Positions 2,373-35,409 of a stretch of DNA of 64,000 nt are shown here, in pieces. The translations under genes and the position numbers were made by a program. Positions within the stretch are counted from its first letter, which is position 1, and the number at the start of each line of letters is the position of its first letter. Under the pieces are notes generated by a model, which ran no database searches, had not been told where the DNA came from, and saw only the letters and a program-made list of their open reading frames with translations. Source of the DNA: Oscillospiraceae bacterium (GTDB taxonomy: Bacteria; Bacillota; Clostridia; Oscillospirales; Ruminococcaceae); NCBI GenBank assembly GCA_017435565.1, contig JAFSEU010000028.1, positions 1-64,000 of the forward strand. The letters are read 5' to 3'.

Positions 2373-3221
2373 TTACTTATTCTCAACAGGGAATACTGTA
2401 ATTACTTTAAGTGCATATCTGGTGATGATTGTAGCGTCGATAGAATTTATCGTACCATCGCCGTTTACGTCGCAGCGTACCTGTGCATCAGCGGAAAGTG
2501 TCAAAACCTGAAGTGCAGCTCTTGTTACGATTGTAGCGTCAATAGAGTTAACAACGCCGTCACCGTTTGCATCGCCGTAAAGTCCGACAGAACCGATTGT
2601 CACTTCACCATCAGTACCTGATACTGTTGCATATGTTGCATTAAGATCAGCGTCAACCTGTGCAAAATACATTGAAGAATTGTATACGCCCGAACCGGAG
2701 TATGTCTCACGATAGATGGACTCTATAGAGAGAGGATATGTTCCGCTTGCACTATCAGATACAGTACCTGTAATTGTGCAGAGAACGCCGGTTGTATTGA
2801 GCCAGTAGTTGGAATCTTCAAGAGCAGTTACCCATGTGATGGATACCTGATCGTCAAGAATTGCATAGTCAAGGCAGGAATAAGCCGAACCGCTTACCAT
2901 AGAATCTGCAAGTCCGGAATTGAGAGCAAGCTCTGCAGCTGCCGCACCGTTAGGATCAGCAATCGCTCCTGCTGTAACAGAAGTAATAGTGATAGCCGAG
3001 CTGTCATAACCAACAGCAAATTCAAGTGCGTTTATACCGCCGGAGGGGATGCTCGTGAGATTCACGTCAACAGAAAACGTTTCGCCGGCATTAACAGTAG
3101 CACTTCCGACTGTGACACCAACTGTATCTGCAGCACTTGCCGTGAAAGCAAATGTGGAAAGAACAGCTGTTGCGGAAAGTGCGCAAGCAAGAACACCGGA
3201 AACCAGTCTTTTCAGTTTCAT
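2373..3221 (-). CDS. Cohesin-dockerin adaptor scaffoldin (ScaC-like architecture)
   Basis: The 282-residue protein has a signal peptide (about 1-30, ending SASA-AD type), one type I cohesin module (about 31-205) and a C-terminal dockerin (about 212-275). The dockerin shows two complete calcium loops, GDANGDGVVNSID and CDVNGDGTINSID, each followed by an ATI(V/I)TR helix. One cohesin plus one dockerin is the layout of adaptor scaffoldins such as Ruminococcus flavefaciens ScaC: the dockerin docks on a larger scaffoldin and the cohesin recruits a different set of enzymes. I chose ATG at 3221 because GGAGG lies nine bases upstream and the signal peptide starts there; upstream in-frame codons lack this. 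It has its own consensus promoter and a strong terminator, and sits next to a cohesin-rich scaffoldin. Confidence 0.88.
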   Translation of the reverse strand: MKLKRLVSGVLACALSATAVLSTFAFTASAADTVGVTVGSATVNAGETFSVDVNLTSIPSGGINALEFAVGYDSSAITITSVTAGAIADPNGAAAAELALNSGLADSMVSGSAYSCLDYAILDDQVSITWVTALEDSNYWLNTTGVLCTITGTVSDSASGTYPLSIESIYRETYSGSGVYNSSMYFAQVDADLNATYATVSGTDGEVTIGSVGLYGDANGDGVVNSIDATIVTRAALQVLTLSADAQVRCDVNGDGTINSIDATIITRYALKVITVFPVENK

Positions 3222-3370
3222 GCCAAAAAACCTCCACAAAATTCGAAATTGATGTTTATATATAAGCACGGACAAAGTTAGCCGACCTTGGACCGCACAG
3301 ATATACCGATTCGCATTCAGCTCCGTGTATCGGCGGCGTATTCCGACTACACGTACTGATTCTTAATGAT

Positions 3371-5614: not shown

Positions 5615-5654
5615 ATCCCTTGGAGAGATATAACTTTCCAAGGGATATTTTTTT
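5615..5654. terminator. Bidirectional terminator
   Basis: A 9-bp stem ATCCCTTGG (5615-5623) with CCAAGGGAT (5638-5646) is flanked by A-rich sequence on the left and a T-run on the right, so it can end the MaoC gene and the convergent permease operon. Confidence 0.85.
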
Positions 5655-5665
5655 GCAAATTTGCT

Positions 5666-6706
5666 TTAACCGACAAGACCGCTTCTTTCGATACCTTCTG
5701 TAAAGTATTTTTGCAAAAATACATACATAACAAGAATAGGAGTGATTGAAAGCAGACAGCCTGCTTCAAGCCAGACGATAATCTGTCTGACGTCGGGTGT
5801 GGTGCTTGTTGCAAAAAGCTTCTGCGAAAGCTGTGTGCTCAAATTCTTGAGCATAAGCGCAATCGTCTGGTTGTTGTTGAAGAATACGGAGCTGACATAA
5901 TAGTCGTTCCAGTACCAGACAACAGCGAAAAGGAAGACGGTCAGGAACGAGGATGCAGCGTTGGGAACCATAATCTGAACAAAGGTTCGCAACGGGCCGC
6001 AGCCATCGAGATATGCAGCGTCCTCAAGCTCTTTCGGCAAGCCCTTGAAGAACTGACGGAAAATCAGAATGAACAGACCTGCTCTGATACCGTTTGCGGT
6101 AAGTGCGGGCAAGTACATTACAAGAGGATTGTCGATAAGGCCTCTTTCTGTTCCGTTGATTGCCTTTACAATAGGTGCAAACCAGTATCTGAAAATCTCA
6201 TACTGGGGCATCATTACTATCTGCGTGGGAACGAGAATCATAAGGACAACAATTGCAAAAAGAAAGCCTTTTCCCTTGAATTTGAATCTCGCAAAACCGT
6301 AGCCTGTAATCGAGCAGCTCAGAACTGTGACGAGCGAGCAGCCGATGTTGATAAACAGTGTTGTTTTAAGCGTTTCCCAATAGTTCATAACACCGATGGT
6401 GTCCTTCATAACGCTTAAAGTGTAGTTTCTCGGAATCCACATAACCGTCGGGTCGTTCATATCGCCGGGGTCACGGAATGCATGGCTTATCATAAAGATG
6501 ATGGGATACAATATGACAAAGCCGAGACCGAGCAGAATAAAGAACCTGAAAAACGGCCACACGCATTCAAATGCGCGTTTTCTTCTCAGATAAGCAAGCT
6601 CCTCGCGGTTCATATACTGCTTTCTGATTTTCATAGCCTCTTTTTTGCTCATGCCGTTGCCGACTGTTTTCTCATTCTCGGCAGCGACAGTATTCGATTT
6701 TTTCAC
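5666..6706 (-). CDS. ABC carbohydrate permease, MalG-type (second pair)
   Basis: A 346-residue inner permease subunit of a CUT1-type sugar ABC importer. A cytoplasmic N-terminus of about 50 residues precedes six predicted membrane segments. The EAA loop that contacts the ATPase is visible as EDAAYLDGCGPLRTFVQIMVP-like sequence near residues 229-249 (19 of these residues carry the motif). It is the last gene of the large minus-strand operon, 14 bp after its partner permease, and ends at a strong terminator. No ATPase gene lies in the operon; a shared MsmK-like ATPase elsewhere is the usual solution. Substrate cannot be read from the sequence; the context suggests a glycan-derived oligosaccharide. 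Confidence 0.9.
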   Translation of the reverse strand: MKKSNTVAAENEKTVGNGMSKKEAMKIRKQYMNREELAYLRRKRAFECVWPFFRFFILLGLGFVILYPIIFMISHAFRDPGDMNDPTVMWIPRNYTLSVMKDTIGVMNYWETLKTTLFINIGCSLVTVLSCSITGYGFARFKFKGKGFLFAIVVLMILVPTQIVMMPQYEIFRYWFAPIVKAINGTERGLIDNPLVMYLPALTANGIRAGLFILIFRQFFKGLPKELEDAAYLDGCGPLRTFVQIMVPNAASSFLTVFLFAVVWYWNDYYVSSVFFNNNQTIALMLKNLSTQLSQKLFATSTTPDVRQIIVWLEAGCLLSITPILVMYVFLQKYFTEGIERSGLVG

Positions 6707-6720
6707 TTATATCCCCCCTT

Positions 6721-7803
6721 TTAGTCTACTTCGTAGTAAACAAACTTGTTGATTAAACCAACGATAAGTCCTACGCCTGCAAGAATGATCAAGAAGTATG
6801 ACCACGCCATTGCTGCGGCAAGACCGTATTCCCATTCGACCTGCTGCTTTTCAAGAATTCGAGCCATTACAGGGTTTGTCGGGTCGGTAAACTTATCAAT
6901 TACAGTATAAATAAAGTTTGCAAGAATCATCGGGCTTACATAGGGGAAGGTAATCTTCCAGAAGTATTCCCAGGCGGTTGCACCTTCCATCTGTGCTGCT
7001 TCCTTTGCGGAATGAGGAATATTCTGCAAAGCTGCAAGGAATACAAGAATCTGAATACCCGAGCTCCATACAATGTTGAGAATTTCGTTTGTAAGGGTCT
7101 GGATAACCTCGGTGAGCGAAGTACTTATATTATATATACCAATAAAGTTCAAAAGCTCACCTACAAGGTCGGTCTCGAACATTGTTGAGAACTGGCTTGC
7201 GCTGTCAGCGCCCGAGGTGCTGATGTTACCTGTAATAATGCTGTAAACAGGACCCGTAACGATAATTACAGGAAGGAAGAAAATTGCTCTCGAAAGAACC
7301 CTTCCTTTGAATTCCTGGTTAAGAATTACAGCAATGAAAAGCGAAAAGATAAGGATAAGGGGTGTCTGAATGACTGTGTCCTTCAGAACATCAACAAGCA
7401 AGGTCCAGTACTGCGGGTCGTTTGCAAACGCTTCATAGTAATTTGCAAAGCCAACATAGGGGCCTTCCATTCCTCCGTCTGCGGGAAGAACGTTTCTGAA
7501 TGAAAAGTCAATTGACTTTATAAGCGGAATGATGAAGAAAATGAGTGTTCCTATCATCCAGAGTGCGATAAATCCGTAGCCGTAAAGCCCCTTCTTGCGT
7601 TCATACGAAAGAATCGAGCGCTTCTGCTTTTTTGGCTTTTCGGTCTTTTCAGTCTTTATTTCGTCCTCTTTATCGGCCTTTGAAAGCTCAGCTCCCTGAG
7701 CTTTGAGAGCCTCATCCTCTGCAATTTCAGGAGATTCAGCTGCATCAGCTGCGATTTCCTTTTCGTTTTCTTCGGATAAGTTCATATTATCGATATCTGC
7801 CAT
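6721..7803 (-). CDS. ABC carbohydrate permease, MalF-type, with long acidic N-terminus
   Basis: A 360-residue permease. The first 75 or so residues are hydrophilic, rich in Glu, Lys and Ala, and precede a first membrane segment near residues 77-97. The EAA motif reads EAAQMEGATAWEYFWKITFP. It pairs with the following MalG-type gene (14-bp gap). The acidic cytoplasmic extension is longer than in typical MalF/UgpA proteins of this size and may be a contact site, but I know of no function. It lies downstream of the DUF5696 gene with 18 bp between them. Confidence 0.88.
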   Translation of the reverse strand: MADIDNMNLSEENEKEIAADAAESPEIAEDEALKAQGAELSKADKEDEIKTEKTEKPKKQKRSILSYERKKGLYGYGFIALWMIGTLIFFIIPLIKSIDFSFRNVLPADGGMEGPYVGFANYYEAFANDPQYWTLLVDVLKDTVIQTPLILIFSLFIAVILNQEFKGRVLSRAIFFLPVIIVTGPVYSIITGNISTSGADSASQFSTMFETDLVGELLNFIGIYNISTSLTEVIQTLTNEILNIVWSSGIQILVFLAALQNIPHSAKEAAQMEGATAWEYFWKITFPYVSPMILANFIYTVIDKFTDPTNPVMARILEKQQVEWEYGLAAAMAWSYFLIILAGVGLIVGLINKFVYYEVD

Positions 7804-7821
7804 CGGAAATCAATTCTCCTT

Positions 7822-10800
7822 TCAATTGTAGTTTTCAAGAGCATAGCTCTTGCCGTTGCACTCAATAGTGCCGTTGTTAATGTCAACAACGGTTGAAACA
7901 CCGTTCGAATATGTAGTTGTAATTACTCCGTTCTCTTCAACGTAGTCTGTGATATTGGCATTGCTCACCGCAGGGAGAATTTCCTTTGCAATTGCATATT
8001 CCTCACCTGCTGTTTCAAGCCAGTATTCATAGTTTGCGTAATAATACACATCATAATCAGTTGCTTTAAGCTCGTTTGTTTCGATATATACCATATCATA
8101 CTGCAAATTGCTTCCCGTTGCGATTGCACGGAGGAAAGCCTCCTCAGAGTCGGCGTCGGAATTGATTGATGCGCATGAATAAGGTACAACTCCGTGCATT
8201 ACAAGCTGATAGAAGGGAATGTCATAATCAAAGATATCATACTTGCTTGATGACAGCGGAATGCTTGTAAGCTGGTCGGAATAACCGATTGCATATTGGT
8301 TGGGCGTGTCGGAAATGACATTGCCGACTGAAGCTCTGACATCGCTGAGAGCCTGCTCAACGAGAAGCTGTGTATCATATCTTGTATAGAAATCCTTAGC
8401 GTAGTCACCGTAAAGAACCTGAGTAAGCGAACCGAGTGAAACGCCGGATACGCCTTCGTCCTTATACTCCTGCGCAAGGTCCTTATAAAGCTCGTCGAAC
8501 ACAGCAGGTGTGATAAGCGAAACAGAGTCTTCCTCGGTAACAGCTGTTCCGAAAGCAAACTCATAATCATAGAGTCTTGCATACTCGCCGCTGATTCTCA
8601 TAGCGGTGTCGGTAAACGTCCAGTAGCCGTTGCCTGTGTTGAAGTACACATTATCTACAACGTTATAAAGCTGAATATTTTTTGAAGCGATATAATCGAG
8701 AAGGTCGTTATATGCACTCTTTCCGCCGAGAGCTGACGAGGGCTTGGCCTTAAAGTCAATCTCGCCGTCGATAGCGGCATTTGTCCAGTTGTTGTAGCTG
8801 ACAACAATATTGTCAACGCTCTGTCCGTCGAGTGCTTCAAGAATCGTCTGAGCCTGGTCGAATGATGTGACGTCGAGTCTTGTGTCTACGGGGATGCCCA
8901 TAACGCTCTCTACTGAGGTTGTGCCGCCGAAGAGATTTACATACATAGGCGCGTAGTTTTCAGTTGCTTTAACCGTAATCTCACCGGATTCGATAAGATA
9001 TTCTCTGTAAGCTGCGGCAACATCGACATAATCCACATCACCGTCGCCGTTTACGGGTGTATATTTCACCTCAAGAACGGGGGTGTTGATATCCCTTGTT
9101 TCAAAAACCTCAAGCACGGAGCTGGAGCTCATATAATACGAGTCGCTGTCACGCAGATTGAAGGTAAACGAACAGGTGTTGTAGGATGTGCTCTTGGTAG
9201 CCATACTTACAGCGGCGTTGATTGAAACGCTGGAGTCACCCTGCGAAACCACTGCAAGCATTGCAGTATCCTGCTTGACGATACCGAACATCGGGAAGCT
9301 TACTGTTTCGGTGTTGTCAGGCATAAACAGCGGAACTGCTGTTATATCGCTGCCGTAAACCTTTGCGCTGTAAGCCTTTGCCTTTGTTTTGCCGTTGTTG
9401 AAATCAATAACCGCACCGGAGCCATCGGGAATGATGAAATATCCTTCCTCGTCGGCAGCACCTGCGCCGAAGCCGCTGAACACTTCAATGTCCATAATTA
9501 CAGCGCCGTTGGTTGTGGTTGTGTTGCTTTCAACAATTTCTTCGGTTACGATTTTTACATTGAAACTGCCGTTTTCAAGTGTATACTGAACGGGAATTTC
9601 AAAGTTGACGGTGGTGTCGCCCACCTTATAATCAAAGAGATATGTAAGCTTTACACCGTTGCTGATAGTTTCGGGAGTCTTGAGTGAGCCCTTGTGAACT
9701 GAGCTCATAGTTTCACTCTTTCTGGCGGAAGGAACGCCGATTGTAACAGCGATACCGCTCATAAGATTGTTTCTGTAAGCCTTGGAGCCCTTGATATCAG
9801 CCTCAGCATTTACAGGTGCAGACCACCAAATTTCACCGCTTACTGTATCTTTAAGTGCAAACAGCTCCGAAGGATTTCCACAGTCAACAATCTGGGTGAT
9901 TGCCATATCGTCAATTGTGAGAAGCTCGCCGTCGTATGCGTCACCCTCAACAGGAGCCGAAAGTGCCGCACCAAGGTGTGCTTCAACCTCAGCCCAGGTT
10001 GCAAGATCTGTTGTGCCGTCGTCATCGTCATAGAAAGCGATGACCGTGCTCTGCGAGCTTTCTGCCCAATATACGCCGTAAAGCTCGCCATCTTCGTCAA
10101 GCTCAACGCCCCAGACGGTTCCTTCAAACTCTTCGCCGAGTTCAAGGCTTATAGCCTCTTCAAACGAAGCTGTGTCGGAAACGCTGGAAATTTCTTCGTC
10201 TGTAATAAGTCCGATTACGCCGACAGAATTTGCGGGAGCAAGTTTTGCTGTGCCGTCATCGAGCGTTTCTTCCTTATCATATTTGGTGATGTAGTCATCC
10301 GCTGCGTCATAAAGCTGCTCAACAGCCTCCTGCGCCTTGAGCGTTGCTACATATTTATCAATACAGCCGCCGTAGTATTCCGTATCGACCTCTTCGCCAA
10401 ATCCCCAAGCCACCATCTTCAGGGTGTCATCGGTCTTTGTCCACGCAGCGTCAGCAGGAATTTCAAGCGTGTTTTCTGCATAATCGTCCGCCTTTTCGTA
10501 GAAATAGAACCACGAATCGGTCACAGGCTCTGCGCCCGTAATATCCATTACCTCAAACACTCTTACATCGCCTTCAACATCGCCCGAGTGCTCTGTTACT
10601 TCTCTGAGAGAAGCAACATTGAAGCCCACTTGAGTGTAGATGTCAACATCGGACGCATATTCGTCCTCATCATACTCTTCATCTTCTGCATCGGGGTCAT
10701 ATTCAAGCTCAAGTGTAGCGTAGTTATATTCATATTTCTGGTCGAGAGTGAAGTAAAGCTCAAGTCCGTCTGCGGATGCGACCTTTTCCATTGAAGCAAA

Positions 10801-11010
10801 GACTTCATCCTCTGTACGGCTGATATAATTGACATTTACTGTATTTACAGCGCTTTCTTCGCCCTCTATAGCAGCTTCACCGTCAACAGCTTCGGTTGCA
10901 GCGTCGCCGGTTTCGGCTGAATCAGTCTCGGCAGCTGAAAGATTCATTCCCTGAAGGAGCATTGTTCCCGCCAGCAGACCGACAAGAATTCTTTTATATT
11001 GATACCGCAT
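7822..11010 (-). CDS. DUF5696-type large secreted protein, probable glycan-active
   Basis: A 1062-residue protein with a signal peptide (about 1-27) and no lipobox or C-terminal anchor, so probably secreted or wall-associated. After an acidic N-terminal region (about 30-330) come beta-sandwich-like stretches and, from about residue 700, segments resembling an (alpha/beta)8 barrel. Size, composition and its place between sugar-permease genes match the DUF5696 family, which I recognise from operon context and general pattern rather than a proven domain match. Function is unknown; a glycoside-hydrolase-like role is inference. Start ATG at 11010 has AAAGGAAA nine bases upstream. An 89-bp gap to the preceding Yip1 gene could hold a weak internal promoter. 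Confidence 0.6.
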   Translation of the reverse strand: MRYQYKRILVGLLAGTMLLQGMNLSAAETDSAETGDAATEAVDGEAAIEGEESAVNTVNVNYISRTEDEVFASMEKVASADGLELYFTLDQKYEYNYATLELEYDPDAEDEEYDEDEYASDVDIYTQVGFNVASLREVTEHSGDVEGDVRVFEVMDITGAEPVTDSWFYFYEKADDYAENTLEIPADAAWTKTDDTLKMVAWGFGEEVDTEYYGGCIDKYVATLKAQEAVEQLYDAADDYITKYDKEETLDDGTAKLAPANSVGVIGLITDEEISSVSDTASFEEAISLELGEEFEGTVWGVELDEDGELYGVYWAESSQSTVIAFYDDDDGTTDLATWAEVEAHLGAALSAPVEGDAYDGELLTIDDMAITQIVDCGNPSELFALKDTVSGEIWWSAPVNAEADIKGSKAYRNNLMSGIAVTIGVPSARKSETMSSVHKGSLKTPETISNGVKLTYLFDYKVGDTTVNFEIPVQYTLENGSFNVKIVTEEIVESNTTTTNGAVIMDIEVFSGFGAGAADEEGYFIIPDGSGAVIDFNNGKTKAKAYSAKVYGSDITAVPLFMPDNTETVSFPMFGIVKQDTAMLAVVSQGDSSVSINAAVSMATKSTSYNTCSFTFNLRDSDSYYMSSSSVLEVFETRDINTPVLEVKYTPVNGDGDVDYVDVAAAYREYLIESGEITVKATENYAPMYVNLFGGTTSVESVMGIPVDTRLDVTSFDQAQTILEALDGQSVDNIVVSYNNWTNAAIDGEIDFKAKPSSALGGKSAYNDLLDYIASKNIQLYNVVDNVYFNTGNGYWTFTDTAMRISGEYARLYDYEFAFGTAVTEEDSVSLITPAVFDELYKDLAQEYKDEGVSGVSLGSLTQVLYGDYAKDFYTRYDTQLLVEQALSDVRASVGNVISDTPNQYAIGYSDQLTSIPLSSSKYDIFDYDIPFYQLVMHGVVPYSCASINSDADSEEAFLRAIATGSNLQYDMVYIETNELKATDYDVYYYANYEYWLETAGEEYAIAKEILPAVSNANITDYVEENGVITTTYSNGVSTVVDINNGTIECNGKSYALENYN

Positions 11011-11099
11011 ATCTCAAATTTCCTTTCCGCACCGCACATATCATATAAGCCGCATTATGTACGGTGACAAAATTGTCGCAATAAACTTTTATAAACAAA

Positions 11100-11729
11100 T
11101 TATACTCTTATTCTGTATGTGATTTCCGTATACAGAGAGAAGAAGAATACGAACAGCTTCTGGAAAAGTGCAAGCACAAGTACAAGCAGAAGCAGAATTA
11201 CTATCATTGCGACAATTGTGAGAAAGATAACAACAAGGGTTTTTGTAAAGGAATACTGGTGAACGGCTTTTATTGCATTGAAAATAAGCAAGACCGACCA
11301 GAGCAGTCCGATATAATAAACCGCATTGAAGAATACCATTTCGTCACGAACAAGGAAGTGTGAAAGTATAATCTGAATATACATCTGAACGATGTAGGGT
11401 ATAAGCGCATATGCGCTGTATATGCAGATTTTTTTCAATGTTCCCTCGCCGTCAAACAATGTACACAACGCCCAGTTTCCGACGACCCATGCGCCGAACA
11501 TCAGAAAGCTTCGTGTAATATAGGGAATGATATTGAAAAGTCTGTCCGAAGGAAATGCAAACTGCGGGCCTACCCAGCGTGCCATAGCTATCTGCGCGAT
11601 AAAGAGGAGCACCACGATAACCATTGCGATTTTTACCGAGCCGCCTTTTTTCCAACGCAGATCCTCATAACCTTCAAAGGGGTGGAACACAACGTGCTTG
11701 ACCCATTGACCCTGAGTCAAATCCATCAT
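11100..11729 (-). CDS. Yip1 family membrane protein
   Basis: A 209-residue protein with five predicted membrane segments and the Yip1 pattern: an N-terminal [13 protein letters not shown] block, [16 protein letters not shown] in the middle, and [11 protein letters not shown]. Bacterial Yip1 proteins have no established activity. In Paenibacillus and clostridia they are often found beside DUF5696, NHL-repeat and sugar-ABC genes, as here. The start ATG overlaps the stop of the NHL gene by 4 bp (ATGA), so translation is coupled and the two proteins are probably made in fixed proportion and may work together in the membrane. Confidence 0.82.
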
Positions 11730-13573
11730 AATTCATCATCCTCCTTTTCGGTTTCGCCGCTTTCAGCCTCAAGCGGCTTTATGCGGGGTCTTATCGGTTC
11801 TTTCTCCTTTCGCTGGGGCAATTTGATTTTAGGAAGCTTCAAAATGCCCTTCTTGAACAGGGTTGCCAGAACCTTGATAACAATAATAATTACAACAATT
11901 ATAATAAGTATGAGCGAGAGGTTTTCCTTAAGGAATTCTTCACGCCAGCCCTCAAATGCTTTGTTGTAAAGATTGCTCAGTGCTGCCATTTCCGCATACT
12001 TCATAGCAAGCTCGTAATCGCCTCTGTTAAGATAAGCGTTGGCAAGGCCTATCTGTGCGATAAGGTAGTTACCGTCGCCCTTCATAACCTCAAGCCACGG
12101 CTCGAGTGCTTCTTCATAATAGCCGCCGTTATAAAGTGCGGTTGCCTCGTGCACAAGCTCGCCGAACCTTGTTTCCTTGAAAATCGTTACCGTAAGCTTG
12201 GCTGAGTCAAGAACATAGATATCCTCGCCCATTGTTTCAAGCGCAGAAACCTTCGTGAAGGTTCCGAGCTGGTCACCGTCGCTGCCGAGCACAAACAGAA
12301 GTCTGCATTCGGTATCATACTGGAAAACTCTGCCCTTGGTAAGGTCAAGGCAGCAGATAAGCTTGTCATCGGTGATATCGATGTCGGTAAGCATCGTAGC
12401 GTATGTATTGTTTCTGTAATAAGGGCTTTCATAATCGCCGAAATGGTATTCGTTTCCGGCGGTATTATTGAAAATGTTATAGCCTGCGGGGTTAAGCTTC
12501 TTTACCTTGTCAACATCCTGACTGATGGATTCGGTACAGGTGTAGATAAATCCTTCATCGTCAATATCAAAGTTCGAGAAGCCTGCAGCAGTCGATTTTG
12601 TTCTTCTGCTTCTTGCGGTTTCGGTCGAAATCGAGTTTACAAGATAGTTAAAGATAACCTCAGCCGTTGCATCAACACGGTTTGCACCATAAAAGCTTGT
12701 GAAGGTTCCTTGTGAATCGAAAACTGCAGCACCGCTTGTTGTACTTGTTACAACAACGTAGAGATAATCTGCGCTGTCAACAAGAACCTTCTGCGGCCAG
12801 AAAGTTGTTCCGTCACCATAAACCTCGTTGAAGGGTGTGTAGTAAATCATTTCCACATTGCCTTCAAGGTCACACTGCACAACGCGGGAGTTGTCAGCGT
12901 CGGCGATATATACGCTCTTTTCGTTTTCAGCAACAAATGCGCCGCTTTCGTCAAGGCACGAATCTGTAACAAAAACGCCCTTTGGTCCTTTAAGTGATGT
13001 AGAAACAAGCGAAGTCGTTACAAGATTTTTAAATTCCTGATACTGCTCATCACTGAGATCGCTCACTGTAATATCGGCCTTTGTTGCGCTTTCAATGTCG
13101 CTGTCCGACCAGCCTGCCGCTGTTCGCAACTGCTTCTGATAAGTTTCTACATATGAATCCGAAAAACTTACCATATCGGAAACATAGCTTTCCTTAAGCT
13201 CCTCGACGTAGGCTTCGTCAAATTTGAGCTGAGAAATCTCGCCGGGAACCTCAGAAAATGTCTTATCAATTGTGGTTTCAAATGCCGTGTCGATTATAAC
13301 GATACGGTTGTTGCCTGTATCTGCGATGAAGAACCAGTCATCCTCGTCGCGGAAAATATCCGAAGGCTCGGAAAAAGGTCCGCAGCCGAGCATATCGCCC
13401 GAAACAGCCCTGTCGGCTGTATATCCGCTTTGGGAAGGAATAGCTTCTCTCCATCTGTCATAGTTGTAAGTCACATACGGCTCATATGCAACAGCGGACT
13501 GAGTCAGCATCGAAGCTGTCATCATTACTGTAAGCGCTGCGGCAGAAAGCCTTAATTTATTACGTTTATGCAC
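11726..13573 (-). CDS. Secreted NHL-repeat protein with TPR and C-terminal membrane anchor
   Basis: A 615-residue protein. It has a signal peptide (about 1-30), a domain with repeated D(T/A)-xNxR(I/V)V motifs typical of NHL beta-propellers (about 45-460, for example [12 protein letters not shown] and [12 protein letters not shown]), two TPR-like helical repeats (about 470-545), a strong membrane helix (about 548-572) and a basic then acidic cytoplasmic tail of about 40 residues. The propeller and TPR are therefore outside the cell. I chose GTG at 13573, eight bases after GGGG; an ATG 39 bases upstream lacks a ribosome site and would spoil the signal peptide. Function is unknown; a ligand- or glycan-binding receptor coupled to Yip1 and the permeases is inference. 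Confidence 0.75.
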
Positions 13574-13624
13574 CAAGTCATCCCCTTTTGATAAATAAGA
13601 TGTATTTTGCAAACCAATGATGCT

Positions 13625-14506
13625 TTATTCCTTGATACCGGAATGTGCCATTGTTTCAATAACGTGTCTCTGAGCGATAACAAAGACAAGCACGGGAGGT
13701 ATCAGCAGTACAATAACACCTGCCGCAGCAACACCCGCACGGGCAAGGCCTGCCGCGCCGATCTGCTGAATAATCGTAGGCAAGGGCTTGTAGGCTTCGT
13801 TAAATACGAAGCTGCCGCCCGTTGTATTCCAGGCTGCCTGGAAAATGAAGATGATCATTGTCATCAATGCGGGCTTTGAGTTCGGCATAACAATGCCCCA
13901 GCAGATTCTGAAGTTGCTTGCGCCGTCAACCCTTGCCGCTTCAATCATAGCGTTAGGAATCTGGCTCATACACTGGCGCATAAGGAAAAGTCCCATAGTT
14001 GAAGGAATTACGGGAAGAATAAGCGCCCAATAGGTGTTGATGAGGTTGAGCTCGGCAATAACCATATACTGCATAATATAGATTACATTAGAAGTATAGA
14101 GAAGCGAAAGTACGATGAGCTCGTTGAAGAATTTAGCGCCGGGAAATGTACATTTTGCAAGAACGTATGACGCCATACAGCAGACAAAAACGTGCGCTAC
14201 GGAAATTGCGGCTGTAACAAAAAGGCTGTTGAATACATATCTTGAGAACGGAACCCAGAGGTTGCTTGCAACCGAAAGCAAGTCCTTGAAGTTGTCAAAC
14301 GTCGGGTTCATTACATACATCTTCGGAGGGAACAAAAACAGCTCCTGCACCGGCTTAATCGAGTTGATAATAGCAAAATATATCGGGAATACCATAAATA
14401 TTCCAAGCAGGGTGAGGAATATAAATATGCAGACTGAACCGCCGATTTTTCTTCCTGCGCGCCTGCTGGTTCCCTTCATCTTGTCAAGATGCTTTGCGTC
14501 GGTCAT
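13625..14506 (-). CDS. ABC carbohydrate permease, MalG-type (first pair)
   Basis: A 293-residue CUT1-family permease with six membrane segments. The EAA loop reads EAARVDGASNFRICWGIVMP. It follows its MalF-type partner by 15 bp and the pair follows the large binding-protein gene, the usual order for sugar importers. It is distinct in sequence from the second MalG-type permease at the end of the operon, so the operon has two different transmembrane pairs for a single visible binding protein. Confidence 0.92.
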   Translation of the reverse strand: MTDAKHLDKMKGTSRRAGRKIGGSVCIFIFLTLLGIFMVFPIYFAIINSIKPVQELFLFPPKMYVMNPTFDNFKDLLSVASNLWVPFSRYVFNSLFVTAAISVAHVFVCCMASYVLAKCTFPGAKFFNELIVLSLLYTSNVIYIMQYMVIAELNLINTYWALILPVIPSTMGLFLMRQCMSQIPNAMIEAARVDGASNFRICWGIVMPNSKPALMTMIIFIFQAAWNTTGGSFVFNEAYKPLPTIIQQIGAAGLARAGVAAAGVIVLLIPPVLVFVIAQRHVIETMAHSGIKE

Positions 14507-14521
14507 ATTCTCTCCCCTCCT

Positions 14522-15487
14522 TTAGTCAATATATTTATTAAGAATTTTTCTTATCAGGTAGTTTGCGGCAAGCATCGCGACGAACAATACCATACATATT
14601 GCCGAAGCATAGCCCATTTCGTATCTCGTCCAGCCGTAGTCCTGAGCGTGGTTCATAAGGGTGTGAGCCGCGTAGTCCGTGCTGGGAAGACCGACAAGGT
14701 TCTGCGAAACGGTACCTGCGGTAAACGCGGAAACGATTGTCATTACCGCCGAGAACATAAGCTGGGGACCCATTGAAGGAAGCGTTATATAGATAAGCTC
14801 CTGCCAACGGTTTTTGATTCCCTCAACAGCGCCCGCTTCATACATCGACTTGTCAATGCCCTGGAAGCCTGCTCTGAACGAGAGGAAGCCGGCACCGAGC
14901 GAAAGCCAGAGCTGAACGACGATAACGCATCCGAGGATGTATGTCGAGTCAGTCAGCCACTGCTTGGGGCCTGTGATAAAGCCGAAGTTTATGAGCACGG
15001 CATTAAGCCAGCCGTATGAGTCACCGCTGAAGATTGTCTGCCAGATATAATATACATTCGACATTGAGGGAATGTAGAATATCAGCGTGAACAAAGTCTT
15101 GAGGAAACCGGGAAGCTCATTTATAAGCCACGCAAGGAAGAAGCAGAGGAAGTAGCTTATCGGGCCTGTAAACACAGCAAAAACCAAAGTGATTCTTACT
15201 GCGGTCATAAAAACGTCATCCTCAATGAACAGCGTATAGAAGTTTTCAATTCCGACAAACTTGGGGAAATGAACCATATCAAAATCCGTAAAGCCCATAG
15301 GAAGAGACATTATAACAGGAATTACTGTGAATATGGTGAAAAGAATCAGAAACGGGGCGAGCATAAAGTAGCAGGATTTATTGCGCTTGATTTCTCGCCA
15401 GTAATAGCTTCTGTCATATTTCTTATTGCCGATTTCATCGGCAGTAAGCAGTCTTTTTTCTGCCGATGATGATGTTGAATTACTCAA
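14522..15487 (-). CDS. ABC carbohydrate permease, MalF-type (first pair)
   Basis: A 321-residue permease with a hydrophilic N-terminus of about 35 residues and six membrane segments. The EAA loop reads EAGAVEGIKNRWQELIYITL, with Gly in place of the second Ala. It lies 38 bp downstream of the solute-binding protein gene and 15 bp upstream of its MalG-type partner. The substrate is presumably delivered by the 996-residue binding protein. Confidence 0.92.
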   Translation of the reverse strand: MSNSTSSSAEKRLLTADEIGNKKYDRSYYWREIKRNKSCYFMLAPFLILFTIFTVIPVIMSLPMGFTDFDMVHFPKFVGIENFYTLFIEDDVFMTAVRITLVFAVFTGPISYFLCFFLAWLINELPGFLKTLFTLIFYIPSMSNVYYIWQTIFSGDSYGWLNAVLINFGFITGPKQWLTDSTYILGCVIVVQLWLSLGAGFLSFRAGFQGIDKSMYEAGAVEGIKNRWQELIYITLPSMGPQLMFSAVMTIVSAFTAGTVSQNLVGLPSTDYAAHTLMNHAQDYGWTRYEMGYASAICMVLFVAMLAANYLIRKILNKYID

Positions 15488-15525
15488 GAAAATCGCTCCT
15501 TTTTGAAGGTTTTAAGGGTATTGGG

Positions 15526-18516
15526 TCAATCAAGCCCGAGGTTCTTGCGCTTTCTCGCAATTTCGGAATTGATGTCCTTGTTGTACCACATAAGGGTATC
15601 ACGGGGATTTTCCGCATTATTTACGGTTTCTCTGAACGCTGTCTGGAGCGATCTTGTTACAACATAGGAAGCGGGAATAATCGAGATTTCTTCGAGCTGT
15701 GCCATCTGAGCTGCAATCTTTTCGTATTCATCGGTTGACCACGAAAGCTGCGCAAGCGCCTCTAAGTTTGCAGTCGAAACACGACCCATCTGTCCCATAA
15801 GTCCTTCAATATTGTTTGCATATGCTACCTGTGTGTCCGTGTCTGTAAACCAGGAAACAAACTTCCATGCGTCTTCCTTATTATCAACGCATTCAAAGAT
15901 GATTGCGCCTGCACCCGTTGAGCTTACAGCGTGTGAGATGCTGCCGTCTTCCTGAACAGTTCCGGGGATGTATGTAAAATCCCAGAGGCCGCTGATTTCG
16001 GGGGCTGCAACGGAAAGCTGGTTGAAGAAGGAGTTATAGTCCTGTGCGACAACGATGGGGTACTCACCTGTTCTGAAGTAGCTGAACTCATCATATGTCT
16101 GCGAGAATTTATATTTTGTATAGAAATCCGTCCACTGCTCAAACGCCTGAACAGCTTCAATGCTGTCAAACAGGGTTTGTGTCTGTTCCTGATTATAATA
16201 GTTTGTTCCCTTCTGCAAAAGCAGTGTTGCAAAGGTATGGCCCGATTCGGTCGAAGCGGTAATAGCCGATGTAGGCTTAACCAGACCGACACCGAGGTTG
16301 TTTCTCTGCAATGCGGGAAGGATTTCAATAAGCTCATCCCATGTTTCGGGCGCCTTTGTAAATCCGAGTTCCGTCAGAATATCCGTTCTGTAGAACATCA
16401 TCGCAAAGCTCTGGGTAATCGGCAGACCGTAGCATTTATCATCATATGTATACATTACGGTTGCGTTTTCCTGAAACCTTGATTTGACCTGTTCAAAATC
16501 AGAGAACTGGTTCATATCGACAAGCAATCCTCTTACTGCGAGGTTTACAGGGAATTCACCGCCGACAAACAGCGCAATATCAGGTCCCTGTCCTGCAAGC
16601 GTCGCCTCCATAATCGTACCCTGAACAAGGTTTACGCTGACGCTGATTCCATATTCGGGAACGAAGTCAGACTCAACAAGCTCCTTGACTACCTGAGCCT
16701 GGTCACGCGCAAGCGATACCCACACGTTGAGAGGCTCTGCACCGGCTTCGCTCTCATCTGTAAGAATGTTATAATCTTCAAAGAATGAGCCGAAGAACGC
16801 TCTTGTGTGGAAGCCCATGCTCTTGAACATATTGGAATCAACAACATAAATGCCGTTTGTGTCTGATTCCTTCACGTTTTCGATTTGACGTCCGTAGGGA
16901 ACAAATTCGATATAGTCAATTTCGAGAGGCTGGTCACGGTAATCACGCATCCAGGAAGAAAGCGATGTTACGTTTTCCTTTATCTGCGAAAGGTAATTCG
17001 GAATTTTATATTTGTTTTTAACGCATTTATCGAGAATAACCGTCATTCTTTCGATTGCAGTTGCCTCGGAACCGCCCGACGAGCCCGAAATCGACTCAAT
17101 CTGGGTTTTGATGTTTTTTAGCTCCTGTGAGAGCCTTGCAAACTCGTCAACAAGCTCAGGGATCTTGGTGTGCACGGAATAATCCGTATATTTATCGGGG
17201 TCCGGGCTTGTTATCATAATAATTTTTCTGTAATATGTATTAAGCTCAAGAACAATTTCGTCAAGTCTTCTCATAGACTCGCCGATTGCGCCGGGAATCG
17301 CTTCCATTGTGAAGTCGTAATACTTACCAGCCTCAAGGAAAATATAAATCTCCTCTCCGCTGTTTGATGTGGGAACAACAATGTTCCAGTCGTTGTCGTA
17401 ATAGAACATAACGTCATCGAATTCTTCAAAAAGAACCTCGCCGTTAAGATAGATTCTGCGGTTTGAAGCAAAGCCTCTCATTTCGTCCTGCTTTGCCTTG
17501 ATGGCAACCTTATAGTAGCCGCTTTGCTCAACAGAAACCTGCCATGTAATCGACTGGCCCGATTTGTCCCAGTTATCAGCGCCGATTGTGTTATAGCGCA
17601 TCTTTGTGGGGTCCGCGGGTGAAACAAGGTAGCTGTTTCTGTCATAGGTCGCATAAAGAGTCGAATGGGTTTTGTAGGTTGCGTCCTCGCCCTCGATTCG
17701 GACTGTTTCAGAAGCATTGTAAGAGCCCATTGTTGCCGAATCTGCGTAGTGTTCGGACTCGTTATAGGAAGCAAGGTCTTTCTGATTATAGAACTTGATT
17801 GTATCAATGCAGAAGTTTGCCTTTACGCCGACGAGCGTAAGCTCGTGCTCGCCTTCTTCAAGATAGAAATACAGCGGGTCGTTGAAAAGTCCGTCAACGT
17901 CCTTTATATCGCTTGTCAGCCAGCGACCGTCCTGAACCTGAGCAGGCCTTATCTGATTGTTTCTCTTGTCATATTTATCAACATCGGTTTCGTCCTTCCA
18001 TGCTTTTCCGAGCTCAATACGCTGAGCTGTTTCAAAGGGAAGAATTCCGTCGATATACGCCTCAAATTCAATAGTTGTCACATTGCAGACAATAGGATAA
18101 TAGAGCATCTGCATATTGTAGATGCCCTCTTGCTCAACATTGAATTTATATGTAACCTCACCGTCGGAGCTGTTCCAGATAAGAACATCGTGGTCGGATT
18201 CATAATCCATTTCATCGGTAGCAGAATCATCGCCGCCGTATTTTCCCGTAGAGATTCCGTCACCGTCGCTCGATATAAAATCGGCGCCGTTAATCAGAAT
18301 TTCTTTGTCGGGCTTTGCGCTCTGTCCGTAAATATCGAGATATTCGCTGTATGTGATGTAATCGACATACATAGCGGTGTTCTCGTCAAGGGACAAGTCT
18401 ACCTCCTCCTGGGCATATGATACCAGCGTATTCACAGGAAGTGCGCTGAGCATTCCGCCAAGCGATGTTACCGCTGCCAGAATGCCGCTAAATACGCGTT
18501 TGGCTGATGATTTCAC
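15526..18516 (-). CDS. Giant ABC solute-binding protein fused to beta-sandwich modules
   Basis: A 996-residue protein, more than twice the 400-450 residues usual for sugar-binding proteins. It starts with GTG at 18516 behind AAAGGTGG. A signal peptide (about 1-35, ending SYAQ) has no lipobox. Two beta-sandwich modules resembling carbohydrate-binding or galactose-binding-like domains follow (about 40-255 and 270-440), each with an amphipathic strand ending in a DTIKFY or LDEIVLEL-type motif. A helical linker (about 450-545) leads to a classical extracellular solute-binding domain (about 590-990) with GPDIALFVGGEF, MFYRTDILTELGF and PETWDELIE. Role: capture a glycan and pass it to the permeases. 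How it is held at the cell without a lipid anchor is unclear. Confidence 0.82.
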   Translation of the reverse strand: MKSSAKRVFSGILAAVTSLGGMLSALPVNTLVSYAQEEVDLSLDENTAMYVDYITYSEYLDIYGQSAKPDKEILINGADFISSDGDGISTGKYGGDDSATDEMDYESDHDVLIWNSSDGEVTYKFNVEQEGIYNMQMLYYPIVCNVTTIEFEAYIDGILPFETAQRIELGKAWKDETDVDKYDKRNNQIRPAQVQDGRWLTSDIKDVDGLFNDPLYFYLEEGEHELTLVGVKANFCIDTIKFYNQKDLASYNESEHYADSATMGSYNASETVRIEGEDATYKTHSTLYATYDRNSYLVSPADPTKMRYNTIGADNWDKSGQSITWQVSVEQSGYYKVAIKAKQDEMRGFASNRRIYLNGEVLFEEFDDVMFYYDNDWNIVVPTSNSGEEIYIFLEAGKYYDFTMEAIPGAIGESMRRLDEIVLELNTYYRKIIMITSPDPDKYTDYSVHTKIPELVDEFARLSQELKNIKTQIESISGSSGGSEATAIERMTVILDKCVKNKYKIPNYLSQIKENVTSLSSWMRDYRDQPLEIDYIEFVPYGRQIENVKESDTNGIYVVDSNMFKSMGFHTRAFFGSFFEDYNILTDESEAGAEPLNVWVSLARDQAQVVKELVESDFVPEYGISVSVNLVQGTIMEATLAGQGPDIALFVGGEFPVNLAVRGLLVDMNQFSDFEQVKSRFQENATVMYTYDDKCYGLPITQSFAMMFYRTDILTELGFTKAPETWDELIEILPALQRNNLGVGLVKPTSAITASTESGHTFATLLLQKGTNYYNQEQTQTLFDSIEAVQAFEQWTDFYTKYKFSQTYDEFSYFRTGEYPIVVAQDYNSFFNQLSVAAPEISGLWDFTYIPGTVQEDGSISHAVSSTGAGAIIFECVDNKEDAWKFVSWFTDTDTQVAYANNIEGLMGQMGRVSTANLEALAQLSWSTDEYEKIAAQMAQLEEISIIPASYVVTRSLQTAFRETVNNAENPRDTLMWYNKDINSEIARKRKNLGLD

Positions 18517-18650
18517 CTGTATTCCACCTTTCCTTCACCGCGTTCCGGTGAGTCTGTATTTGTATGTGAACATCGGCGGCACAATGTAATGCTTTTCTCG
18601 CTAAAAGCTTTCGCCGCCATTCCTTTTTCAAGATAAATTTAGTACATTTT

Positions 18651-18680
18651 ATTATACCACAATGTTCAAAACATTGTCAA
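18651..18680 (-). promoter_or_regulatory. Promoter of the 13-kb glycan-import operon
   Basis: TTGACA (18675-18680) and TATAAT (18651-18656) on the minus strand, 18 bp apart. The leader to GTG at 18516 is about 130 nt. It is the only clear promoter for the eight minus-strand genes down to 5666. Confidence 0.8.
18659..18677. promoter_or_regulatory. Perfect palindrome in the promoter spacer, candidate operator
   Basis: ACAATGTT-CAA-AACATTGT has two perfect 8-bp arms around a 3-bp centre. It fills the spacer between the -35 and -10 boxes, the position where a bound repressor blocks RNA polymerase. No regulator gene is adjacent, so the protein is unknown. Confidence 0.6.
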
Positions 18681-18768: not shown

Positions 18769-20238
18769 TCAGTCAACCGGCGGTTTTTCCTTTGCGCAAA
18801 ATCCCAGAAGCATCCAGAATATCGGAGCAACAAGTATCGAGCTTGTGTTGAAAAATCCGATTATTATATAGCTTAAAACAGCTGCGAATGCCGCACCGCA
18901 TACCCAAAAGTCGTTCTTTTTGGCGTTAAGCATTTCGCGAACGCCCGCAAGAGAGCGTTTTACAGAAAGAACAAGCAGCGCCGCATACGCAAGCAAAGAG
19001 GGGATTCCTCTTGTTGCGGCAATATAAAGATAGTCGTTGTAGCACTTGTCAAAGGAATAGTTTTCGACCATAATCTCGCTCGTTGTTTTGAGCTGTGTAT
19101 AATACAGACAATCGGGTCCTGCACCCGTAAGCCAGAGGTCGTATTTGTCCATTGCCTCAAGGGTGTTTGACCACAGATAGCCGTAAAGCTCGCCGAAATT
19201 TGAAATATCAAAAGGCGCTCTGTCAGGGAATTCCTCGGTATTCGGATAATAATATCCCGAAACGCCGGACAAGTACGAAAAGCTGTCGGTCCACATAATT
19301 CCGCCGTCATAAAGCCCGCCGCCGGAGAAAAACATTATACAGCAGCTGACAAAAACGGCTATATAAATCACACAGCGGACGATAGGATATGTAGTGGTTT
19401 TGTAATGTTCACTTTTCTTTCGTGTCATTCTGATTATTTCAAACACAAGCACGCACGCAAGCACCGCACTGATACCGAGAATGCCGATTATTGTATGCGT
19501 TGCAACCGCAAACACAATAAATATAACGGTAGCTACTGTATAAAGAACCCTTCTGGGGATATGCAGGTCATAGCACGAACCGAAAACAGAAACTCCGCAG
19601 ACAAGCGTCAGAAGCGTCGCAAAGAAAATCGGGCTGGTACACAGACCGCTGGGGAGATATACGCCGAGGAGTCGCATAGGGGCAAGATTTATATAAAACG
19701 AATATTTGTTGGCAAACGGCCCGGGAATTGACTGCAGCAGTGCGAAAACGCAGTTGAAAACACCCGCAGCCACAAGCACATCCATTATAATACGCATTCC
19801 GCGTTTGCGCTGAATCTGCATGGCAAGCAAAAAAATACCCATATAGCAGGTGATTGACAAAAGCCCCTCGAATCGACCGTAGTTTCCCGACAAAGCCGTA
19901 TCGAAGTCAAATGACCATATTGATGCTATAAAGGCCAGAACAAACATTATTATGCAGAACAAAAAGGGGAGCACCTGTGATTTGTCAAGCTGTTGCTTTT
20001 TTGCCTGTACGACAGCAAGCCATATAAACGCTGCTGCGCCCGCCAGTGTCAGAGTCATAGAAAACGCAGTCATTTCAACAATAAAAAACATCTTGAGCGC
20101 AACCATAATATAGATGAACACAGGCACAACAAGCAGAACGCCGACCGTTCCCTTGCGCACAGTGCTTTCACGCATATTCAGGATAAAGTTGGACTTTTCC
20201 GTTGTGTTGAATATGGTTTTATTTTCCTTCTGAGCCAT
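18769..20238 (-). CDS. O-antigen ligase / polymerase-like membrane protein
   Basis: A 489-residue polytopic protein with 10-12 predicted membrane segments and a large extracytoplasmic loop near residues 305-400, the layout of the Wzy_C / O-antigen ligase superfamily. These enzymes join or polymerise lipid-linked glycans outside the membrane; in Gram-positives they serve wall or capsular polysaccharides. No glycan-synthesis genes are adjacent, so the substrate is unknown. I chose ATG at 20238 with GGGAG eight bases before it. The gene runs in the same direction as the import operon and ends 89 bp upstream of its -35 box. Confidence 0.75.
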   Translation of the reverse strand: MAQKENKTIFNTTEKSNFILNMRESTVRKGTVGVLLVVPVFIYIMVALKMFFIVEMTAFSMTLTLAGAAAFIWLAVVQAKKQQLDKSQVLPFLFCIIMFVLAFIASIWSFDFDTALSGNYGRFEGLLSITCYMGIFLLAMQIQRKRGMRIIMDVLVAAGVFNCVFALLQSIPGPFANKYSFYINLAPMRLLGVYLPSGLCTSPIFFATLLTLVCGVSVFGSCYDLHIPRRVLYTVATVIFIVFAVATHTIIGILGISAVLACVLVFEIIRMTRKKSEHYKTTTYPIVRCVIYIAVFVSCCIMFFSGGGLYDGGIMWTDSFSYLSGVSGYYYPNTEEFPDRAPFDISNFGELYGYLWSNTLEAMDKYDLWLTGAGPDCLYYTQLKTTSEIMVENYSFDKCYNDYLYIAATRGIPSLLAYAALLVLSVKRSLAGVREMLNAKKNDFWVCGAAFAAVLSYIIIGFFNTSSILVAPIFWMLLGFCAKEKPPVD

Positions 20239-20273
20239 TATCCTTGCTCCCTTCCGCATTGAGTGTTATCCGA

Positions 20274-35318: not shown

Positions 35319-35380
35319 AAAAAATATCCCTTTCACATTTGTCAAAAATTTATATCGCCTTATAAACCAATTTACAAATA

Positions 35381-35409
35381 ATTTTACCAACCCATATGTA
35401 AAAAGTCAA
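35381..35409 (-). promoter_or_regulatory. Promoter of the dockerin esterase gene
   Basis: TTGACT (35404-35409), 17-bp spacer, TAAAAT (35381-35386) on the minus strand. Confidence 0.6.

Follow-up and report, generated by a model that had tools for sequence, protein, structure and literature searches.

Gram-positive bacteria of the gut, rumen and soil digest fibre, and the way in which they hold polysaccharides and import the fragments is understood much less well than it is for Bacteroidetes. What, then, should be made of an operon that encodes one giant binding protein, two unlike permease pairs and three accessory proteins, with no ATPase among them? It was found in a stretch of 64,000 nucleotides (the window) from the genome of an Oscillospiraceae bacterium (G000; 2.1 Mb in 33 contigs), and comprises the following features, given in window coordinates from the promoter onwards.

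18651-18680, minus strand: predicted promoter match, TTGACA-18-TATAAT with extended -10 (TG), 12/12 to consensus
15526-18516, minus strand: SBP1, secreted binding protein of 996 aa (Pfam SBP_bac_1/8)
14522-15487, minus strand: MalF1-type permease, UgpA/GlcT-like (NCBIfam UgpA, 2.6e-13; no Pfam match)
13625-14506, minus strand: MalG1-type permease (BPD_transp_1, 2.4e-7, over the cut-off; UgpE, 6.9e-29)
11726-13612, minus strand: NHL beta-propeller/TPR protein (NHL, 9e-5; TPR weak)
11100-11729, minus strand: Yip1-domain membrane protein (Yip1, 2.4e-14; four to five hydrophobic segments)
7822-11010, minus strand: DUF5696 protein with a GH129/GH101 fold (PF18952, 2.5e-152)
6721-7803, minus strand: MalF2-type permease (BPD_transp_1, 1.2e-5, just under the cut-off; UgpA, 5e-12)
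5666-6706, minus strand: MalG2-type permease (BPD_transp_1, 2.3e-15, over the cut-off)
5615-5646, minus strand: hairpin terminator, 13-bp stem with T tracts on both flanks, bidirectional by sequence

Organization of the operon

The window gene calls place eight co-directional genes at 5666-18516 on the minus strand, separated, from SBP1 to MalG2, by 38, 15, 12, -4, 89, 18 and 14 nt. The promoter match starts at 18680 and ends about 135 nt upstream of SBP1, and the hairpin closes the last gene, so that the description given in a sequence-only reading (eight genes in one direction, short gaps, one promoter) was borne out, as were its family labels for all eight products, which agree with Pfam and NCBIfam. 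The 89-nt gap between the Yip1 and DUF5696 genes might possibly contain an internal transcription start, the best promoter-like match there being a weak one (9/12). The upstream neighbour (18769-20259, minus strand) encodes a multi-pass membrane protein with no Pfam match over the cut-off; by eye, its product resembles an O-antigen ligase.

A conserved unit of two co-inherited modules

Is this arrangement a peculiarity of one genome? The neighbourhoods of 160 DUF5696 loci were compared, 80 from family and phylum genomes and 80 from titled records (Paenibacillus, Cohnella, Lederbergia, Gracilibacillus, Halanaerobiaceae, Limnochordia and uncultured Bacillota). Among these loci, in many Bacillota, the genes recur in the order SBP1-F1-G1-NHL-Yip1-DUF5696-F2-G2 (F and G denoting the MalF- and MalG-type permeases of pairs 1 and 2), so the survey of gene neighbourhoods that the earlier reading had proposed found the gene order kept in other genomes. 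DUF5696 adjoins F2 in 153 loci and F2 adjoins G2 in 151, while each of the junctions SBP1-F1, F1-G1 and G1-NHL is seen in 115-117 loci, at median gaps that range from -8 to 17 nt; in 77 loci each of the eight components has a gene of its own. The eight-gene set is an ancient conserved unit of Bacillota, probably for sugar uptake, and not a local oddity. It occurs in about 30% of the family genomes sampled and in 9% of the sampled Bacillota genomes. In some lineages the SBP1-F1-G1 block is downstream of the other genes or on a separate contig, and from this we define two modules: module A (SBP1-MalF1-MalG1) and module B (NHL/TPR, Yip1, DUF5696 and MalF2-MalG2).

The two modules are nevertheless inherited together. 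Among 148 genomes of the family, full-length DUF5696 was found in 45 and SBP1 in 45, with both in 44 and neither in 102; the two exceptions (one or other alone) involve matches at contig ends in assemblies that are 70 and 78% complete. In the phylum sample, 37 genomes have both, none has DUF5696 alone, three have SBP1 alone (a partial match in one case) and 358 have neither. Fisher's test gives p of about 2e-35 for the family and 5e-49 for the phylum, values that take no account of phylogeny and indicate effect size only. Even where SBP1 is unlinked (genomes G209, G282 and G312), both SBP1 and DUF5696 are kept, at similar copy number. Pairwise distances correlate at 0.86-0.93 across all components, a level that could also be obtained from vertical descent alone; and co-inheritance of modules is, in any case, no proof of physical contact.

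Two complete permease pairs and an ATPase encoded elsewhere

The claim that the two MalF/MalG pairs are unlike holds: F1, F2, G1 and G2 each form a clade of their own, the branching within the four being similar, and recent duplication of one pair was rejected as their origin because neither F1 and F2 nor G1 and G2 are sister groups (identities are about 25-27%). The EAA-type loop at which the ATPase docks is kept in all four permeases, with its conserved E, A and G (E217 and G223 in MalF1), so that both pairs are MalF/MalG-type heterodimers with EAA loops. An import function for the operon is well supported.

What might drive these permeases? The absence of an ATPase, as read from the sequence, is right for the operon, and one MsmX/UgpC-type ATPase is encoded elsewhere in the genome: a gene at 18930-20063 of contig C27 (484 bits) is the only one in G000 over the UgpC cut-off. 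This is the MalK/MsmX-type ATPase that a CUT1 importer would use, and its service to these permeases is a prediction from sequence. G000 has another MalF/MalG-like pair on contig C18, adjoining its own binding protein, and a further permease pair on C8 beside an ATPase, which looks like a polyamine-type importer.

A LolD-type ABC ATPase is encoded immediately upstream of SBP1 in 14 of the 45 family loci (for example L069:18617-19570, minus strand, and L138:330-1376, plus strand, besides 12 others), at least six of these proteins having a C-terminal AbrB/MazE-like domain. It was considered as a dedicated core motor and rejected, since its best matches in G000 have no such C-terminal region and it was not seen upstream in the titled loci.

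SBP1 and a second family of binding proteins

SBP1 belongs with the CUT1 sugar-type binding proteins by its SBP_bac_1/8 match and by fold and sequence. Pfam places SBP_bac_8 at residues 629-901 (1e-22), along with a weak CBM35 match, and the AlphaFold2 model (pLDDT 84.5) shows a pair of beta-sandwich modules and a helical linker besides a binding-protein domain of the sugar type. A lipobox was detected, by a simple pattern test, in only three of 120 homologues. The closest solved structure in both fold and sequence is Lin1841 (5ysb), which binds beta-1,2-gluco-oligosaccharides; at about 20% identity, this makes beta-1,2-glucan a lead only, and just one first-downstream gene among the loci encodes a Glycoamylase (PF10091). 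Five genomes of the family-level group f18 (G154, G201, G240, G274 and G304), none of which has a full DUF5696, encode binding proteins of about 430 aa that match the binding-protein domain of SBP1 only (E about 1e-80); possibly these are SBP1 relatives without the carbohydrate-binding-module (CBM)-like modules.

In 45 of the 53 titled loci with a same-direction upstream gene, that gene, directly upstream, encodes a second binding protein of the SBP_bac_8 family (SBP2), and elsewhere a binding-protein gene follows G2 (17/55 and 13/64 loci). SBP2s are about 460 aa long, and 43 of 47 have a lipobox by the simple pattern test. No SBP2 is among the eight gene calls of the window operon. Assignment to SBP2 was made by profile score, with a family-wide cut-off of E<=1e-40. 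Against an SBP2 model that was built from Bacilli-type loci only, two binding proteins of G000 reach 151 bits (contig C18) and 130 bits (C19), compared with 22 bits for an unrelated CUT1 binding protein, 15-16 for SBP1 and 5 for another binding protein; a third SBP2-family gene is on C28, and none of the three adjoins a permease gene. The statement that the system has one binding protein is therefore true of the operon but not of the genome.

Many other members of the family likewise keep SBP2s away from the operon, and SBP2 co-occurs with DUF5696 across the family (both in 39 genomes, SBP2 alone in six, DUF5696 alone in six, neither in 97). Several genomes have 5-10 SBP2s, and one locus (L268; G010:C5:28000-46000) carries a tandem run of about eight SBP2-family genes, some of them broken, with no permease gene seen there. 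Judged by these numbers, pair 2 probably works with several binding proteins, and solitary sugar-binding proteins in such genomes may have one permease hub in common. There is experimental precedent in Anaerocellum bescii for one importer used by two binding proteins and a shared MsmK ATPase (PMC12838199). Like the unit described here, Athe_0595-0598 of that organism combines a binding protein and a MalF/MalG-type heterodimer with EAA loops with an ATPase encoded elsewhere, and has more than one binding protein per permease pair (PMC12838199). Unlike such CUT1 importers, the present unit has two unlike permease pairs, an SBP1 of 996 aa that carries CBM-like modules and is not lipidated, and NHL, Yip1 and DUF5696 as accessories.

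The NHL/TPR and Yip1 proteins

The window NHL protein has a C-terminal membrane helix (residues 558-593), as is the case for 81 of 86 unfused homologues, in which it is likewise single; the propeller should therefore face outward, with its C-terminal end beside Yip1. In about 61 of the 160 loci Yip1 forms the C-terminus of the NHL protein itself, a fusion that ties the two in function. The operon had been credited with three accessory proteins of no known function. That they are unlike any part of a Sus system still stands, but NHL and Yip1 are often a single polypeptide and the fold of DUF5696 can be recognized.

DUF5696: a glycosidase fold without its nucleophile

G000 has one DUF5696 gene. 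The AlphaFold model of its product is confident from residue 380 onward, and its Foldseek matches are GH129-like DagB (5opq, E 1e-30) and GH129 NagBb (5wzp), at TM 0.67-0.74 by target length (0.74 to 5wzp), followed by GH101 and GH36 proteins, consistent, at the level of a model, with the beta-sandwich plus TIM-barrel fold of GH129/GH101. Profile comparison agrees (match to PDB at E 2e-10; hhalign 98.6%). DUF5696 thus has both fold and detectable sequence homology in common with the GH129 alpha-N-acetylgalactosaminidase NagBb and with DagB, and differs from them in having an extra N-terminal region, in travelling with permeases and in its catalytic columns.

We take Asp435 of NagBb to be the nucleophile and Glu478 to be the acid/base. 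Asp435, at least, is documented as a catalytic residue (PMC5698469). The columns were placed by way of GH129 homologues from the family (L275, 6.6e-256 to NagBb). Within a register that is uncertain by one column between alignment settings, 4% of 56 DUF5696 members have an acidic residue in the Asp435 column, where Arg, Gly and Leu prevail (by local alignment the window protein has Gly there); the column next to it holds Asp in some members, without being conserved. At the Asp of the HLDGW motif no member has an acidic residue, and 46% have one in the Glu478 column, the window protein among them with Asp. Nor do the DUF5696 members have any invariant barrel Asp or Glu, the best being D869 and D928 at about 86%. 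With the nucleophile column non-acidic in 96% and the barrel without an invariant acidic residue, DUF5696 is most likely, as judged from these alignments, a non-catalytic pseudo-glycosidase, and one that may bind glycans. Could it instead be a working glycoside hydrolase whose catalytic residues have changed, trimming oligosaccharides at the importer mouth? The GH129/GH101/GH36 fold would allow this, DagB shows that GH129 relatives may differ at a catalytic residue (PMC5698469), and acidic residues stand in 46% of members at the Glu478 column and in about 86% at D869/D928; set against a barrel in which no acidic position is invariant, a nucleophile column so rarely acidic and the complete loss of the HLDGW Asp, an enzymatic role appears rather unlikely. 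A domain of unknown function that is widespread can now, in either case, be given a proposed fold and a testable role.

NagBb-like GH129 proteins (L275:2467-4362, minus strand, and those of L276-L280) exceed the Pfam cut-off for DUF5696, so proteins of 600-690 aa that carry the DUF5696 label may be active GH129 enzymes.

A proposed dual importer and its alternatives

How might these parts work together? We think it somewhat probable that the unit is a dual CUT1 importer, made of the two co-inherited modules on an NHL propeller/TPR-Yip1 scaffold and fed by SBP1 and interchangeable SBP2s. Module B would be served by lipoprotein SBP2s of normal size, whose genes adjoin it in many relatives and lie on separate contigs in G000; one MsmX-type ATPase, encoded elsewhere, would power both permease pairs; the NHL propeller and TPR would lie outside the cell, anchored by the single membrane helix next to Yip1, and may act with Yip1 as a scaffold; DUF5696, with its GH129 fold lacking the nucleophile, would hold glycan chains; and SBP1, with its pair of CBM-like modules and without a lipid anchor, would together with the SBP2s pass oligosaccharides to both permease pairs, the assignment of particular binding proteins to particular pairs being putative. 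As far as the searchable literature shows, which takes in few subscription journals and no bioRxiv preprints, this is a new form of CUT1 importer: no publication with DUF5696 or describing the gene set was found there.

A bolder version of the dual importer, which we entertain only tentatively, would join both permease heterodimers in one physical assembly in the membrane, with the NHL/TPR-Yip1 scaffold, a pseudo-glycosidase gripping the polysaccharide, and an interchangeable pool of binding proteins supplied in trans (the lipoprotein pool reaches about ten per genome). If true, this super-assembly would be a Gram-positive surface machine for glycan docking and import without a described counterpart.

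Less likely than the dual importer is the view that the operon contains two independent, ordinary sugar importers, brought together because the same polysaccharide induces them, with the accessories working for pair 2 only. Such independence would sit well with the travelling of SBP1-F1-G1 as a block that is sometimes downstream or elsewhere, with each pair being a full CUT1 heterodimer by motif, and with SBP2 as pair 2's own binding protein; yet the near-perfect co-inheritance of SBP1 and DUF5696, at similar copy number even when unlinked, exceeds what mere sharing of a substrate would lead one to expect. Much less likely is a sensing or cell-envelope system, in which SBP1 and DUF5696 would survey the glycans on the bacterium's own surface or pass signals by way of Yip1, transport being secondary. 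No transport role is known for Yip1 or NHL, SBP1 lacks a lipobox and its stronger conservation than that of the SBP2s suggests a constant ligand, but the plant- and host-glycan hydrolases encoded nearby are variable, four complete permeases with docking loops are retained, and a patchy distribution (about 30% of family genomes) would be odd for a housekeeping function. That the window operon is decaying, with pair 2 idle after loss of its binding protein, is scarcely credible: SBP2 is indeed missing from the operon itself, but G000 has three intact SBP2-family genes on other contigs, both F2 and G2 keep open reading frames and conserved motifs, and SBP2s lie away from the operon in many family members too.

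Cargo and comparison with polysaccharide utilization loci

If the unit is a dual importer, what does it import? Since the window operon has no hydrolase or regulator among its eight genes (by Pfam), its cargo has to be deduced from relatives, in which the adjoining genes encode glycoside hydrolases from a wide range of families (among 64 loci, GH10 in 13 and GH26 in six; GH95 in seven of 55). A constant substrate was rejected, as the flanking hydrolases span GH10, 26, 38, 20, 5, 43 and 95. The simplest reading of such varied neighbours is import of oligosaccharides, with a variable substrate; the likely role of the unit is thus oligosaccharide uptake, the substrate being set by the locus and perhaps by SBP2. 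The earlier view of one dedicated importer-type unit is supported by the conserved neighbourhood, and the hydrolases often encoded beside relatives' units make glycan import its most likely job.

Its comparison with polysaccharide utilization loci (PULs) survives as a loose analogy. Like Bacteroidetes Sus-type and Gram-positive PULs, the unit clusters capture with import and has hydrolases alongside in relatives. The analogy is loose because the operon is without a degradative enzyme, a regulator or SusC/D (no SusC/SusD pair was found among the eight genes); it lacks the CAZyme and regulator that characterize a Gram-positive PUL, and its conserved accessories match no Sus part. A unit with a fixed set of parts bears nonetheless on how Gram-positive bacteria capture polysaccharides and take up the fragments.

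Finally, cohesin and dockerin proteins mark G000 as a cellulosome-type genome, probably that of a Ruminococcus-like organism. In the window, a gene some 2.4 kb beyond the downstream end of the operon (2373-3275, minus strand) encodes a cohesin plus dockerin protein resembling a scaffoldin-like adaptor, and further away a protein of 1014 aa (32346-35390, minus strand) combines a dockerin with galactose-binding and ricin-lectin domains and with two GDSL esterase stretches.
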